Made by a program: the position numbers and the translations under genes. Positions 48,992 through 54,206 of a stretch of DNA of 64,000 nt are shown here, one piece after another; position 1 is the first letter of the stretch, and the number at the start of each line of letters is the position of its first letter. The notes under the pieces are model-generated. The model searched no databases and was not told the origin of the DNA. It saw nothing but the letters and a program-made list of their open reading frames with translations. The stretch is from NCBI RefSeq assembly GCF_002813325.1, contig NZ_PHUG01000001.1, positions 3,906,001 through 3,970,000 on the forward strand. Reading direction: 5' to 3'. The DNA comes from Janthinobacterium sp. 64 (GTDB lineage: Bacteria > Pseudomonadota > Gammaproteobacteria > Burkholderiales > Burkholderiaceae_D).

Positions 48992-49067
48992 GCGGCTGTA
49001 GCTCAGTGGATAGAGTATTGGCCTCCGAAGCCAAGGGTCGTGGGTTCGATCCCCGCCAGCCGCACCA
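48992..49067 (+). tRNA. tRNA-Arg (anticodon CCG)
   Basis: A complete 76-nt cloverleaf: acceptor GCGGCTG pairs with CAGCCGC, anticodon stem TTGGC/GCCAA with loop CTCCGAA, so anticodon CCG reads CGG; T-loop GTTCGATCCC region present; CCA 3' end is encoded. The following 4.7 kb are AT-richer and carry mobile repeats, so this tRNA may be an insertion site. Confidence 0.97.
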
Positions 49068-50042
49068 AATTTTCTAATAAAATCAATGATTTAAATGAAT
49101 TTTATTGGATGCTAATACCTCGGACTCGCCATTGGGAAAAACTTTGGGGAATTTTCCCTAAGAATCCCCTGATTTTGCGATCTCGATATTGGCCAATTTT
49201 TCCTGTACGTGACTCCTACCACTACGGAGTTCTGTCATGGCAAAAGATCAAAACGGTCGTCTTGATAAGCAAATCTACTAGTGACGTCCTCAGCATGCTG
49301 GAGGTGATAAATTCGTCGCGATGGGATCAAGATAGACCTTGCCTTCCGGCAGAGGCAGCGTCCGTTTAGCATCAGGACCCGGCCGACGGCTCCACGGCAT
49401 AATCCATTCTCGCAGCACCTCAATTCCGCCTCCGAGATGGTCTGCTCGCCGGACACCGTGCGCAAAAATAAGTAACCCCCTCCATAACCGGCGCTCTGCG
49501 GTGTTGCCCACGGCTAGCAGTGCTCGCACTGCGTGCCTTGCATGGCATCCGGCTCTGTTCTTCATAAATTCACAATAATTTCCTGAGGATTACTTAGGAT
49601 GACGTGTTTCGTTTTTGGTTGTGCACTGATTGTGTGGAATGCGCTGTAATGAATGGGACCGGGGATGCACGAGCTGGAATGGTTTTTTCCTGACTCGGCG
49701 AGTTTTGGCAACGTGCGCTATGTTTGCGGCGCTGATCGTTTTCGCCTGCGGCTGGCATCCAGCCAGGGAGGACGCTGTCGCGTCCTCGCCGGCTTCTGGA
49801 TGGCAGCGCGGAGTCCATCGATAGTATCGGTGACGTGCAAATAACGGGTTGCCATGAGCCAGTGGATGGCTTGATGATGGTGCGGTTCGTCGAGGCCGCA
49901 ACGTCCAGCTATCGTCCTATTATTTGCAGTGTCAGGCGGCCAAGTCGGGGGCGGGGATGTCAGCCCTGCTGCTGATCCGTTCGCTGCTTATGCGGAGGCT
50001 ATTCCATGCGATTGATTGCCTTGCCTATCCAGAAATAAATTA
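49068..50042. other. Gene-poor AT-richer stretch after tRNA-Arg
   Basis: No convincing gene is seen in these 975 bp. It holds the mobile repeat at 49469-49596 and a perfect 8-bp hairpin GAGGACGC-TGTC-GCGTCCTC at 49768-49787. Short open frames here (e.g. 49630-49824) have no ribosome site and no recognisable sequence, and the stretch looks like remnant or insertion-derived DNA. Confidence 0.5.
49469..49596 (+). mobile_element. MITE-like inverted-repeat element, copy 1
   Basis: 128 bp with ends TAAGTAACC and GGATTACTTA (imperfect terminal inverted repeat AGTAAYCC) between TA dinucleotides. It shares blocks AACCGGCGCTCTGCGG, CTAGCAGTG and TCCTGAGGATTA with the copies at 50794 and 53686. It lacks about 26 bp present near the left end of the other copies. 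It has no coding capacity. Confidence 0.75.
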
Positions 50043-50756
50043 CTACAGAAACAGAACTTGTGCATTATCTGGAATGTCAATGCGGAGGTTGTCGTCATAC
50101 TTCGCATCGCTAGCAAACGACTGACAATAGACCTGATGTCCACTATCGTCAGTATTTTTTTCACTGGTTACCAACGCAGTGACGACGACATCTCCATTCA
50201 TCAACTTGACTGGTGCACCAGCTTCACTACTGCACACGCCGACGGAATTAACCTTCATCGCGAAAGGTTTCTGATACCAAGGCGTGAATTTGTCAATCGC
50301 ATTCGTGGCATCAATTATCGATTGGCGAACTTTTCCGATAGTCCAGGCATTATTGGCGATTGCGGGCAACACGGTGATGCGGACATTCAGCTCACCTTTT
50401 TGTTTGTTAATCGAATAGCTTCCATTTTGTTCAGCCACTTCATCGTTGACAGGAACTACAAAAATACCCTTGGTCACTTTGATCGGAGTCGAACTTTGTT
50501 CACCGTCGAGCCACAGCTGAATATCGTTTATTTGCACGCCTGGCTTGGCCGGAGTGAACATCAGGCCCATAGCTACTCGCCCTGACGTAGCAATTTGCAC
50601 TTTTTTCGCCAAAGCATATGATTCTTTATATGATACAAATCGTACGCGGATGCTTTTGACTTCCACGGTCTGTACTGATTCAGTTTCTTGTGCATAGACA
50701 ACACTATTGCCTAAAAGAAGAGCCGAGAAGGCATAGCCAATAAATAACTTACGCAT
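50043..50756 (-). CDS. Exported hypothetical protein in accessory island
   Basis: A 237-residue protein with a clear signal peptide (MRKLFIGYAFSALLLGNSVVYA|QE). The mature part is beta-rich, with no membrane helix; two cysteines (GVCSSEAG and VYCQSFA) could form a disulfide. I do not recognise the family; a periplasmic or surface role is likely. It is AT-rich and lies between two MITE copies, downstream of the M50/peptide cluster on the same strand. Whether it belongs to that cluster is unclear, because a MITE sits between them. Confidence 0.6.
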   Translation of the reverse strand: MRKLFIGYAFSALLLGNSVVYAQETESVQTVEVKSIRVRFVSYKESYALAKKVQIATSGRVAMGLMFTPAKPGVQINDIQLWLDGEQSSTPIKVTKGIFVVPVNDEVAEQNGSYSINKQKGELNVRITVLPAIANNAWTIGKVRQSIIDATNAIDKFTPWYQKPFAMKVNSVGVCSSEAGAPVKLMNGDVVVTALVTSEKNTDDSGHQVYCQSFASDAKYDDNLRIDIPDNAQVLFL

Positions 50757-50793
50757 AGTTTCAATATCATTTCATAAAGTGAAGAGAAAATTT

Positions 50794-50956
50794 TAAGTAA
50801 TCCTCGGGAAATCAGTGTGAATTTATGACGAACAGAACCGGATGTTGTGCAAGGCGTTCGCTGCGATGCAGTGCGAGCACTGCTAGCAGTGAGCAACGCC
50901 GCAGAGCGCCGGTTATGGAAGTCAGAAATCACAATAATTTATTGGGGGGTTACTTA
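50794..50956 (-). mobile_element. MITE-like inverted-repeat element, copy 2 (reverse)
   Basis: 163 bp in the opposite orientation to copies 1 and 3, bounded by TAAGTAATCC and GGGTTACTTA with TA at both ends. It is the longest copy. It ends 3 bp beyond the M50 stop codon (50960) and begins 37 bp upstream of the exported-protein start. An insertion here would separate the two genes. Confidence 0.8.
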
Positions 50957-50959
50957 GCA

Positions 50960-52009
50960 TCAGGAAGTATGATCGCTGGTTCTAGCGCCCAACAAATTTT
51001 TAAATAATGAGTAACTGAACATTAATACCGACATCATGGCAAATACACAAAATATAAAGAGTACAATGCTTCGTACGGGGGAACTGGCCATCATACTGGT
51101 ACTCAGCATATATTGGGAAAAAATAGCTCGTAAGGCTGATGGCACTGTATTGATAAACAAGATCATGAGTGCCAGTCCATAGATTATTTCTAGAGGGTCC
51201 TTTGTATTTAATAGACGCGGCCGAAATTTTCGGCCAATCAGATCGACCAGTACCCAATAACCGTCATAAAATGGAAGCGGTAGAAGATTGAATAATGCGA
51301 GGAAAATTCCTAAACATGCGCCAGCCTGAATACCTGAGATATTGGTACTCGCCAAGATAAAAAACGAAATCAGGAGTTGAAATATGGCTCCGGCAAGAGA
51401 AATGCAAATTTTTCCAGTGCGGTTGGCCAAGCAATGGCTAGTGACATCCACAGTCATGGCGGGGATACCCCAGATTAATCGAAAATGCACTCGACCGACT
51501 GTTCCGGTGTAGTAGCACGCTGCAGTTGCATGACCAAGTTCGTGAACGATAGTTGTCAGTAGCAGGGTGAATACGGCCAACGCAATTTGCGTTGCGGGTG
51601 CAGTTTGTACCAAAGCGGCAATACTGAGTACTTTAAATGCTTGGTGAGAGTGCTGGTAGAGTAACAATGACATCAAGCACATTATTATCAATCCGGCAGC
51701 AGAACCCATGTGACGCAAGGGATACGCTAGCACATAGGACAATTGACGGCGCTCTGCGCCGCGTGTGGCTTTGTGCCCGCTAAGTGCGGCTAGATCGGTT
51801 GGCGCGAGAATATTTCCATTTACCAAAGTCGAGAGCGCCTCGGGCGATAGTTCACTACTGGCGATGAAATCATGTTTTGCATAGGCCTGCGTGAGCTTTG
51901 TCAAATCCATTGCCGGTAAGCCGCCGACCAGGAGGTGACGGTCGCCGCGCACTACCATCAGCTTACCGTTCTTGCTAGCCAACTGATCTACTTCAAAGCG
52001 AAACCACAT
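50960..52009 (-). CDS. M50 (site-2-protease-like) membrane metallopeptidase with N-terminal peptide-binding-like domain
   Basis: A 349-residue membrane protein. Residues 1-95 are soluble: a short strand-turn-strand (KLMVVRGDRHLLVGG) then helices (MDLTKLTQAYAKHDFIASSEL..LSTLVNGNILAP), reminiscent of PqqD-like recognition domains (inference by pattern). Membrane helices then carry the zinc motif HELGH (156-160) and a second motif NLLPLPFYDG with the third ligand D249, the two hallmarks of M50. Such proteases cleave peptides within or near the membrane; a YydH-type M50 protein occurs in the Bacillus yyd peptide locus. Overlaps the upstream acyltransferase-like gene by 17 bp, so they are cotranscribed. 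Confidence 0.82.
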   Translation of the reverse strand: MWFRFEVDQLASKNGKLMVVRGDRHLLVGGLPAMDLTKLTQAYAKHDFIASSELSPEALSTLVNGNILAPTDLAALSGHKATRGAERRQLSYVLAYPLRHMGSAAGLIIMCLMSLLLYQHSHQAFKVLSIAALVQTAPATQIALAVFTLLLTTIVHELGHATAACYYTGTVGRVHFRLIWGIPAMTVDVTSHCLANRTGKICISLAGAIFQLLISFFILASTNISGIQAGACLGIFLALFNLLPLPFYDGYWVLVDLIGRKFRPRLLNTKDPLEIIYGLALMILFINTVPSALRAIFSQYMLSTSMMASSPVRSIVLFIFCVFAMMSVLMFSYSLFKNLLGARTSDHTS

Positions 52010-52901
52010 GGCTTACCTTCCTGCCGATGACAGATTGTATGCAGTCCTTAAGCGATACGTTGGTTTCATCCGTGACAGGTAAGGACCAAGCTTTCATGTC
52101 ATGTGCATGTAGCATGTATCGGCCGGTTTTCCCTTGCCAGACAATTGCGACGTCTGATGGTTGAGCCGGCTCAAAATACATATGCATTTGAAATAGGCGC
52201 TCGTATTGTTGAGGACTATTGCGAACCGCATCGGCAAACACAGCAAAGCATTTTTCTTGGTTCAGATCACCATAGTTGGTAATGATAATCGACTGCTCAC
52301 CCACCATCGAGAGTATAAAATGCTTAGGCACCGCTAGGCGATCGATCATCCGAAACAACGCATCTTTGGCTTTGATCTCGCCACCGATAAATGGGAAGGA
52401 GACATTGCATTCGTGGGTCTGCCCCCAAGGAACGTCGATTTCAACAAAGACAGGGTAGCCATCAGCTAGTGCACGTTTAAGTTGACGCAGCATGCCAAAA
52501 CCACCGTCGATGAACTGGATAGCTATATTGGTTTCTCGTGCGCGCTGATGCAGAATCGTTTTCAGGCTGTCACTCTCGCTGCCGATTAGTACATAAATGG
52601 TTCGATCTTTTGCCCGCCTCGCTATAGCGTGCACTACATGTGGATAAGATCCGTAGTGACATGACATGAAGAATTGTCCGCCGACATCGTCCGGTAGGCC
52701 AGCGTCGTACACTGGAAGATCGATGGAGCCGATAGATGCTAAAGAATGCAAGGAAAATGCACGTTGATAGTTGGTCCATTGCTCGGAAATATAGCGAGAA
52801 TGGTCTGCTGGATAACCCATGCGTGATAAATTGGCGATAGTCGCCGCTTGACTAGTAGGAGTCATATATGAAAGGTGTAAATACGCATGCTTCTGGCACA
52901 T
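51993..52901 (-). CDS. LpxL/HtrB-like acyltransferase-fold protein, degenerate catalytic motif
   Basis: About 302 residues from the ATG at 52901; the ATG at 52865 is an alternative and neither has a clear ribosome site. The order of blocks follows lipid A acyltransferases: GGQFFMSCHYGSYPHVVHAI (about 74-92), LKRALADGYPVFVEIDVPWGQ (about 141-161), a FPFIGGE block (about 169-175) and LAVPKHFILSMV. In LpxL-type enzymes the first block has HX4[DE]; here it is H82-YGSY-P87, so the acid is missing. It may transfer an acyl group by another route or only bind peptide or lipid. It follows two small peptides past a terminator and overlaps the M50 gene, suggesting a role in peptide maturation. Confidence 0.6.
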   Translation of the reverse strand: MCQKHAYLHLSYMTPTSQAATIANLSRMGYPADHSRYISEQWTNYQRAFSLHSLASIGSIDLPVYDAGLPDDVGGQFFMSCHYGSYPHVVHAIARRAKDRTIYVLIGSESDSLKTILHQRARETNIAIQFIDGGFGMLRQLKRALADGYPVFVEIDVPWGQTHECNVSFPFIGGEIKAKDALFRMIDRLAVPKHFILSMVGEQSIIITNYGDLNQEKCFAVFADAVRNSPQQYERLFQMHMYFEPAQPSDVAIVWQGKTGRYMLHAHDMKAWSLPVTDETNVSLKDCIQSVIGRKVSHVVSL

Positions 52902-52902
52902 C

Positions 52903-52941
52903 AAAAAATTTTGCCGGCATCAATCAGAAGCCGGCAAAATT
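52903..52941 (-). terminator. Terminator/attenuator between peptide genes and acyltransferase-like gene
   Basis: A perfect 12-bp stem (AATTTTGCCGGC / GCCGGCAAAATT) with an 11-nt loop, followed on the minus strand by a T-run at 52908-52903, sits between the second peptide gene (ends 52980) and the next gene (starts about 52901). Partial readthrough would give abundant peptide message and less enzyme message, a common RiPP arrangement. Confidence 0.85.
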
Positions 52942-52979
52942 ATTAATTGATGATAAATGATATTGCTACTTCGACTTGA

Positions 52980-53117
52980 TTAACTCGCGTCGAAATTGAA
53001 GATGCAACAAGCGACCTGATTCACCGCATTTTCGCGCTGCTCAATCTCTTCCAAGGTGATAGCGATAATTTCAATGGCTTGATCTTTTTTGATAACTACT
53101 TGTTCTGATTGATTCAT
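52980..53117 (-). CDS. Small precursor-like peptide 2 (45 residues, CC near C-terminus)
   Basis: ATG at 53117 follows GGAG (rc GTGGAGTAATA) at good spacing. The 45-residue product begins MNQSEQVVIKKDQAIEI, continues ITLEEIEQRENAVNQVA, and ends CCIFNFDAS. It shares with the upstream peptide the MNQ start, the TL-[EQ]-EIE-x-REN-A block and CCI[FV]N. Charged leader-like N-terminus and short hydrophobic cysteine-bearing C-terminus are typical of ribosomally made precursor peptides. Too short for ordinary gene finders. No transmembrane or double-glycine motif is present. Confidence 0.75.
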   Translation of the reverse strand: MNQSEQVVIKKDQAIEIIAITLEEIEQRENAVNQVACCIFNFDAS

Positions 53118-53146
53118 TATTACTCCACTAAATTATGATTAATTTT

Positions 53147-53302
53147 TTAAAAAGCCACGTTTACAATGCAGCAATAAATCGTGTCGTTGGCCGATGCATT
53201 TTCACGCGCCTCGATTTCTTGCAGAGTAATTTCACCAACCGGCGCATCCGTATCATTACGGCGTGTGGTCATCGATAAAGCGATCTGAACATCTTGATTC
53301 AC
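53147..53302 (-). CDS. Small precursor-like peptide 1 (51 residues, CC near C-terminus)
   Basis: I choose GTG 53302, preceded by GGAGAAATTC, giving 51 residues; the longer in-frame ORF to 53401 has a lysine-rich N-terminus and no RBS. The peptide begins (M)NQDVQIALSMTTRRNDTDAP, has GEITLQEIEARENASANDT, and ends IYCCIVNVAF. It is a paralog of the peptide at 52980-53117: same MNQ start, TLxEIExRENA block, and CCI core. It is the first gene of the minus-strand cluster. Composition is AT-rich compared with neighbours. Confidence 0.72.
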   Translation of the reverse strand: MNQDVQIALSMTTRRNDTDAPVGEITLQEIEARENASANDTIYCCIVNVAF

Positions 53303-54206
53303 GAATTTCTCCAAAAAAATATTACATGTTGTGATTTTCGAGGAAGTTAAACGACGTTTCCAACCCTTGTTACGAGATTTAACTTTAACAGAAAATTGCA
53401 CCTGACTATCAATTGTATATTCACGGAAATTATTTAGGTAGGTGAATCAAGAAGTTTCCACTTCTTAAGCTATTGATTTTTCATGTTTTTTGTAGAAATG
53501 AAGATGATGTTGGTAAAGTAATTATTTTTCTGAGTGATGGAAAAGCAACATTGTGACAATTCGTGGATTTTTTTTCGTGAAAGCCTGATATGTATTGTCT
53601 CGATGGCAATCGTCCCACCACCACCATCTTGAGCGAGCCGTTATGCAGAACGAGTGTACAGCGGCTACTGCCTATTGGCGCATGCTAAGTAACCCACTAA
53701 ATTATTGTAATTTCTGACTTCCGTAACCGGCGCTCTGCGGCGTTGCCCACTGCTAGCAGTGGGCGCCTTGCATAGCAGCCGGTTCTGTTCGTCATCACTT
53801 CACAAGAATTTCCTGAGGATTATATTGATTCTCCATCAAGCCTTCGCGAGACGGTCTTTTTTTTCCTAGGGCATTTAATTGCGTTTGAACAGTGGCGATT
53901 CTTTTTTACAATCACGCCATAAACGTCCTGTTTGGAGCCTCCTGTATCTTTCGACTCGCAGTCATCACTCTCGTCAGCACGGGTTTCTGGCTAAGGAACC
54001 ATGTTGAGCCTGAAAATCAAGAGGTAGCTGCAAGAAAGCTAACCGCTGCCCGTTTTCCTGGGCATGCAACTATTACTTCAGCAAGCCTGACAAGGTCTGT
54101 ATCGCTGCTTGCCAGAGATGCCACTTTTTTGTGCGTCGCAGACCCGAAAACACCTCTGACGCCCCTGCCGTTGTCACTTTACAACCTTCAAAGTCCCTCC
54201 ACCACC
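53303..54206. other. Intergenic region between peptide cluster and pentose locus
   Basis: It holds the MITE copy at 53686-53826 and, at 53449-53466, a perfect inverted repeat AAGAAGT-TTCC-ACTTCTT about 150 bp upstream of the first peptide gene, a possible operator for the cluster. Nothing else with gene-like support is seen; the 127-codon open frame at 53892-54275 is not credible (see rejected list). Confidence 0.5.
53686..53826 (+). mobile_element. MITE-like inverted-repeat element, copy 3
   Basis: About 141 bp, same orientation as copy 1. Left end TAAGTAACCC is intact; the right end is degenerate (GGATTATAT instead of GGATTACTTA). Shared blocks AACCGGCGCTCTGCGG, CACTGCTAGCAGTG and TTTCCTGAGGAT are present; the outer arms AACCGG and CCGGTT can fold into a long hairpin. 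Confidence 0.75.

Follow-up and report, generated by a model that had tools for sequence, protein, structure and literature searches.

The window analysed here is a stretch of 64,000 nucleotides from Janthinobacterium sp. 64 (NZ_PHUG01000001.1, positions 3,906,001-3,970,000), and all coordinates below count within it. On its minus strand, a compact cluster encodes two short paralogous peptides, a protein with an LPLAT fold and an intramembrane M50 zinc protease. We give an even chance to the reading that this is a rare pathway for ribosomally synthesized and post-translationally modified peptides (RiPPs), in which cysteine-lipidated peptides would be acylated by the LPLAT-fold protein and released by an intramembrane protease guided by a RiPP recognition element (RRE). 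The evidence lies in the gene order and its recurrence in a distant relative, the protein folds, an invariant His/Asp pair, and the confinement of cysteine to the peptide cores.

Cluster organisation and precursor peptides

The original prediction had placed four minus-strand genes in the order peptide, peptide, acyltransferase-fold protein and M50 protease, with a 17-bp overlap of the last two, and all four open reading frames (ORFs) were recovered in that arrangement at 50960..53302. Read along the minus strand, the locus comprises peptide A, peptide B, a hairpin with a T-run, the 290-aa LPLAT-fold protein, the 349-aa M50 protease and a 237-aa secreted protein.

Precursor peptide A (53147..53302, minus strand, 51 aa) starts at GTG 53302, with GGAG upstream, and stops at 53147. 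It consists of the leader ...EITLQEIEAREN and the core ASANDTIYCCIVNVAF, and a protein database lists it as an entry called from an inner ATG (P0026, 41 aa). Precursor peptide B (52980..53117, minus strand, 45 aa) has the leader ...ITLEEIEQREN and the core AVNQVACCIFNFDAS. NQ directly follows the start codon in both, and their 45% identity bears out the predicted paralogy; peptide A ends in F and peptide B in S. Two further B-type peptides, P0028 (E 3e-8) and P0029 (E 1e-6), were found on other contigs among 5.8 billion proteins. Both carry VTLEEIEQRENAxxQVACCI, and across all three sequences (peptide B, P0028 and P0029) the B-type core, QVACCI[FW]N, hardly varies.

In all eight peptides compared, cysteine is absent up to the leader motif and two or three cysteines follow it; the eight represent seven distinct cases, as those of genomes G391 and G434 are near-identical (the motif end was set at AEG in these two). 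The core of P0028, AVNQVACCIWNYN, contains no Ser, Thr or Lys. This leaves only Cys, Tyr, Asn and comparable side chains, together with the backbone amine, as possible acceptors and speaks against Ser, Thr or Lys as the shared site; Lys is present in only one of the eight cores. Hydropathy identified no transmembrane segment in any of the eight (largest 19-residue values 0.02-1.33, threshold 1.6), and the precursors carry net charges of -5 to -8.

The predicted terminator between peptides and enzymes was confirmed as a hairpin with a T-run at 52902..52941 (minus strand; the hairpin itself at 52907-52941; -25.8 kcal/mol, z -5.9), which none of 200 shuffled sequences equalled; it may act as a terminator or attenuator separating precursors from enzymes. 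A comparable hairpin (z -4.6) lies between the two peptides of genome G422. A simple terminator scan, whose rule admits loops of 3-8 only, listed none, and promoter-like sites were no commoner than in shuffled sequences (7 against a mean of 7.0).

The LPLAT-fold protein

The gene of the LPLAT-fold acyltransferase-like protein (51993..52865, minus strand) was assigned 290 aa from ATG 52865. Its longest ORF has 303 aa, from a TTG at 52904 within the hairpin T-run to the stop at 51993; the Met matching ATG 52865 is the start in seven of eight database relatives, the other, P0004, being shorter. LPLAT-fold enzymes are lipid and lipid A acyltransferases, and the closest folds to this protein were a lipid A acyltransferase and a glycolipid acyltransferase, the structure being PatA/LpxM-like. 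H70 and D144 are invariant in all 11 aligned members at 24-28% identity. Their spacing of 74 equals that of the PatA catalytic pair, which suggests, at the level of sequence, a PatA-type His with a block-3 acid.

The protein had been called LpxL-like, a description that holds for the fold and fails for the family. None of the 11 members matched PF03279 at E values up to 1, and the acid at His+5 of the LpxL type (HX4D/E) is missing, position 75 being P, A, V or T in 11/11. A profile from 20 LpxL sequences matched residues 126-232, a region not including H70. In the host genome, PF03279 finds two other places and not the acyltransferase gene of the cluster. No Pfam or NCBIfam acyltransferase model matched at its curated cut-off, and no membrane helix was detected by hydropathy.

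The M50 protease and its N-terminal domain

The protease gene (50960..52009, minus strand, 349 aa) encodes the zinc motifs noted in the original prediction, HExGH (156-160) and LPLPxYDG (D249), and these are invariant in 13/13 aligned M50 sequences, its own included. Several membrane segments were identified by hydropathy, so that the HExxH motif, distal LPxxDG motif and multiple helices of an M50 (site-2 type) protease are all present, and the PF02163 score of 27.6 bits is just above the cut-off of 27.2. The best NCBIfam match was the daptide M50 protease NF041824 (E 1e-14; 54.2 bits against a cut-off of 300). The Bacillus yydFGHIJ locus had been named as a known case of a precursor peptide with an M50 protease, and the YydH/LiaK model does match (E 5e-9), although the daptide model is closer; at 36 bits against a cut-off of 225 it falls, like NF041824, far below threshold.

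A feature beyond those originally predicted is the N-terminal domain (residues 1-88; 51746..52009, minus strand), whose structure model (predicted local distance difference test score, pLDDT, 76) suggests a putative RRE-like fold.

Recurrence in other genomes

The proteins are rare. Among the 5.8 billion proteins, the acyltransferase has nine relatives (its own entry included; the others 53-66% identical) and the M50 protease 12 strong and three weak ones. Four acyltransferase/M50 match pairs have longest contigs of equal size (159551, 4055, 4050 and 4951), which suggests that the two genes may be adjacent in these pairs. The acyltransferase gene was found in 1/100 genomes (its own) in one search, in 3/392 of the family and 1/399 of the order, with at most six first-look candidates scored per genome in these two, in 1/185 of the class (order and class yielding its own genome only), in 3/62 of the genus of G422 and in 0/17 of one more genus. 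Searches of plasmids (by tblastn) and of viral_contigs returned nothing. The genome_contigs set (GTDB 220) gave no match with a close or a broad profile, a search that also missed G422, G391 and G434 and so tells little about distant forms.

The co-occurrence that had been set in advance as a check on the cluster was found in full in one other genome and in reduced form in another. The full set of peptide A, peptide B, acyltransferase and M50 protease occurs in the same order in G422, a distant relative, where the two enzymes are each 28% identical to those of the window. Its positional counterparts of peptides A and B have 44 aa ending CICSTMF and 50 aa ending CICEYDAS, so that the A-type ...F and B-type ...DAS ends are kept. 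In G391 and G434, one peptide (...GICTSATVCIEATSRFISTL) lies upstream of the acyltransferase. A 191-aa M50 protease follows in G391, while the G434 locus ends 455 bases past the acyltransferase, before any M50 position. The G391 protease (L005 745-1320) has HELCH in place of HELGH and is without the N-terminal domain, and its adjoining peptide carries GICTSATVC; the G391 locus may represent a second subtype.

In all four genomes, small precursor genes carrying a leader motif stand beside dedicated enzymes, as two paralogues here and in G422 and as one gene in G391 and G434. When 739 ORFs from three loci were ranked by a profile of four peptides, built without those of G422, the two ORFs that immediately precede the G422 acyltransferase came first and third; their assignment is carried by position and order rather than by E-values. 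The G391 and G434 peptides were assigned from position, a ribosome-binding-like site and alignment. Between these two genomes, the peptide differs by four synonymous and one non-synonymous codons of 48, and the acyltransferase by 24 synonymous and 15 non-synonymous codons of 320; on these codon counts, which are small and no proof of selection, the peptide is not decaying. A peptide-profile match in another genome (G138, L021, G138:C15:92096-92188; E 0.012 per genome over 392 genomes) was taken as chance.

Genomic context and probable acquisition

The cluster lies in an island that begins at the 3' end of a tRNA-Arg (CCG) gene (48992..49067, plus strand) and extends to a gene (54285 on) judged by eye to encode a TonB-type receptor. 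The guanine plus cytosine (GC) content is 46% for 49068-54110, compared with 60% and 61% in the flanks. A 1216-base query from the receptor gene matched whole, at a level of at least 89%, in 24 of 40 congeneric genomes (its own included). Where upstream DNA was inspected, the tRNA 3' end lay no more than 1.5 kb from the receptor side in 14 of 19 relatives and was not reached in the other five. The tRNA-receptor gap measured 62-208 bp in five relatives and 862-1341 bp in nine, against 5051 bp here, and the acyltransferase gene was detected in 0/39 congeners. Because the congeners have a short gap and no acyltransferase gene, the cluster was most likely acquired, recently and horizontally, at this tRNA hotspot. 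Congeners are near-empty at the hotspot or have other cargo there; among six loci read by eye, the cargo looked like a PIN-type toxin-antitoxin pair in some (L025, L027, L041) and like integrase pieces in others (L026, L039).

A near-palindromic repeat of 130-170 nt gave 14 DNA matches at 12 places genome-wide, of which three fall in a 4.3 kb stretch around the cluster. Two copies bracket the four genes in inverted orientation, one downstream of the M50 gene (50794..50946) and one upstream of peptide A (53693..53822); the third (49481..49596) lies between the tRNA and the gene of the secreted protein. The repeat looks like a miniature inverted-repeat transposable element or similar, and it may have helped to move the cluster.

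The secreted 237-aa protein (50043..50756, minus strand) belongs to a widespread multi-copy family with no Pfam name above cut-off, present in 67/195 family genomes (13/44 genera) and at six places in this genome. A dedicated partnership was rejected, as 12 neighbourhoods of other copies (from more than 100 places) showed no shared partner by eye. The gene was kept as a possible fifth member because a copy follows the M50 gene in both full clusters, that of G422 included. A defence system or phage gene was also considered and set aside, as none of the proteins searched matched PADLOC or PHROG at E 0.01. Among known RNAs only the tRNA scored well in the island, a mir-1956 match (E 0.056) being far under the gathering score.

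Proposed pathway and alternative explanations

In the proposed pathway, the two precursors would each join an acidic leader, marked by a TLxEIExREN-like motif, to a short core that contains Cys, and they would outnumber the enzymes because the terminator hairpin follows the precursor genes. The leader would be bound by the putative RRE-like domain of the M50 protease. The soluble LPLAT-fold enzyme would then move a fatty acyl group from acyl-coenzyme A (acyl-CoA) or acyl-acyl carrier protein (acyl-ACP) to a core Cys or to the amine of an N-terminal Cys, and the acyl chain would serve as a membrane anchor for a peptide lacking a transmembrane segment. The protease would cut in the membrane between leader and core and so release one short lipopeptide or two, with a possible role as an antimicrobial or a signal. 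More speculatively, a cut exposing the acylated Cys could allow an S-to-N shift, giving an N-acyl-Cys peptide. At somewhat under an even chance, we tentatively propose a new RiPP class on this basis, in which an LPLAT-fold enzyme acylates Cys and the acyl tether delivers an otherwise soluble precursor to an intramembrane protease that is guided by an RRE and releases paired N- or S-acyl-cysteine lipopeptides.

Several observations weigh against the lipidated-peptide pathway. The shared motif TL-x-EIE-x-REN, on which the predicted RiPP-like cluster partly depended, is partly kept in G422 and hardly in G391, and only the start Met, two Glu and one Cys are invariant across a six-peptide alignment. 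Of the earlier claim, the joint retention of RiPP-like precursors, LPLAT-fold protein and M50 protease is supported; the trimming and acylation of the peptides are hypothetical. The E-values of the G422 peptides (0.064 and 0.9) are not significant alone. Neither the single peptide of G391 nor that of G434 was recovered by the four-peptide profile from the 739 ORFs of the three loci, and the G391 peptide was also absent from the peptide-profile search of 392 genomes.

The folds nearest to the LPLAT-fold protein allow a different division of labour, in which trimming by the M50 protease would turn the peptides into membrane-active bacteriocins, while the acyltransferase would modify the producer's own lipid A or phospholipid and so protect it. 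No other immunity gene was seen, and site-2 type proteases act in the production of epipeptides (PMC10885120) and TMcins (PMC13252029). Producer protection nevertheless appears unlikely: the acyltransferase gene sits between precursors and protease and overlaps the latter, the host already has its two PF03279 genes elsewhere, the protein is without a membrane helix by hydropathy, and the precursors have a negative net charge. A slightly less probable explanation is that the protein has lost acyl transfer and performs another peptide job before M50 cleavage, such as bond formation at Cys or escort of the leader. The lack of an acid at His+5 and of any curated acyltransferase match is in keeping with such a loss, which is opposed by the invariance of His70 and Asp144 at such low identity and at the PatA spacing. 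The least probable of the three is peptide signalling, with precursors cleaved by the M50 protease to small signals, either peptides or lipopeptides, that the same cells sense; this is a claim about role and is compatible with the lipidation pathway. The nearly fixed B-type core, as would be expected of a ligand that has a single receptor, and the two peptides per cluster would suit a signal, but no regulator- or receptor-like ORF was seen by eye in the 5 kb island.

If the proposed pathway is true, an LPLAT family dedicated to ribosomal peptides would be a new enzyme type in RiPP chemistry. Lipopeptides are otherwise mostly products of large non-ribosomal enzymes, and the cluster would offer a genetically minimal, four-gene route to them. 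The access of a peptide that has no membrane segment to an intramembrane protease would be explained as well.

Comparison with known systems

Both acylated RiPPs and RiPP pathways that use an M50 or related protease have precedents. For a RiPP cluster with an LPLAT-fold enzyme, no description was found in the portions of the open-licence literature covered; the original prediction, too, named no described class with an LpxL-like protein and an M50 protease but no radical SAM, YcaO, lanthionine synthetase or ABC transporter.

Daptide clusters combine an RRE with the site-2 protease MpaP, hold on average 2.3 precursors and have the leader motif ELExMEAP (PMC10036551). The present cluster is similar in its short precursors, its acidic leader motif (TLxEIExREN), its M50 protease, which matches the daptide protease best, and, tentatively, its putative RRE-like N-terminal domain. 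It differs in that no oxidative decarboxylase, DUF-RRE protein, aminotransferase or methyltransferase ORF was seen by eye in 49068-54110, in that the peptides have no C-terminal Thr, and in that the protease score is far below the daptide cut-off. In epipeptides (YydFGHIJ / EpeXEPAB), a small precursor is likewise paired with an M50 protease, which is thought to cut and export it (PMC10885120), whereas no radical SAM or ABC gene was seen by eye in the island and the LiaK/YydH score falls short of its cut-off. The pearlin M50 proteases TglG and TmoG remove a single C-terminal residue. They resemble the present case as M50 proteases acting on a modified peptide (PMC10885120), the modification here being a proposal, and no PEARL/LanB-like ORF was seen by eye in the island.

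TMcins have precursors with a transmembrane helix, an ABC transporter, an escort protein and a protease of PF11667 (PMC13252029). They share membrane-set processing by a site-2 clan protease and a conserved Cys pair with the cluster, whose peptides, unlike theirs, have no transmembrane helix by hydropathy (0/8). Nostolysamides, which are lipidated lanthipeptides, bear acyl groups on Lys, and a GNAT is named 26 times in their description (PMC13060382). They too are ribosomal peptides with acyl groups, as proposed here, whereas the present cluster has an LPLAT-fold protein, and Lys occurs in only one of the eight peptide cores. PatA, LpxL and LpxM share with this protein the fold, the His and the distal acid; what sets it apart from them, beside the unmatched PF03279 and the missing acid at His+5, is that its gene partners are peptides and a protease.
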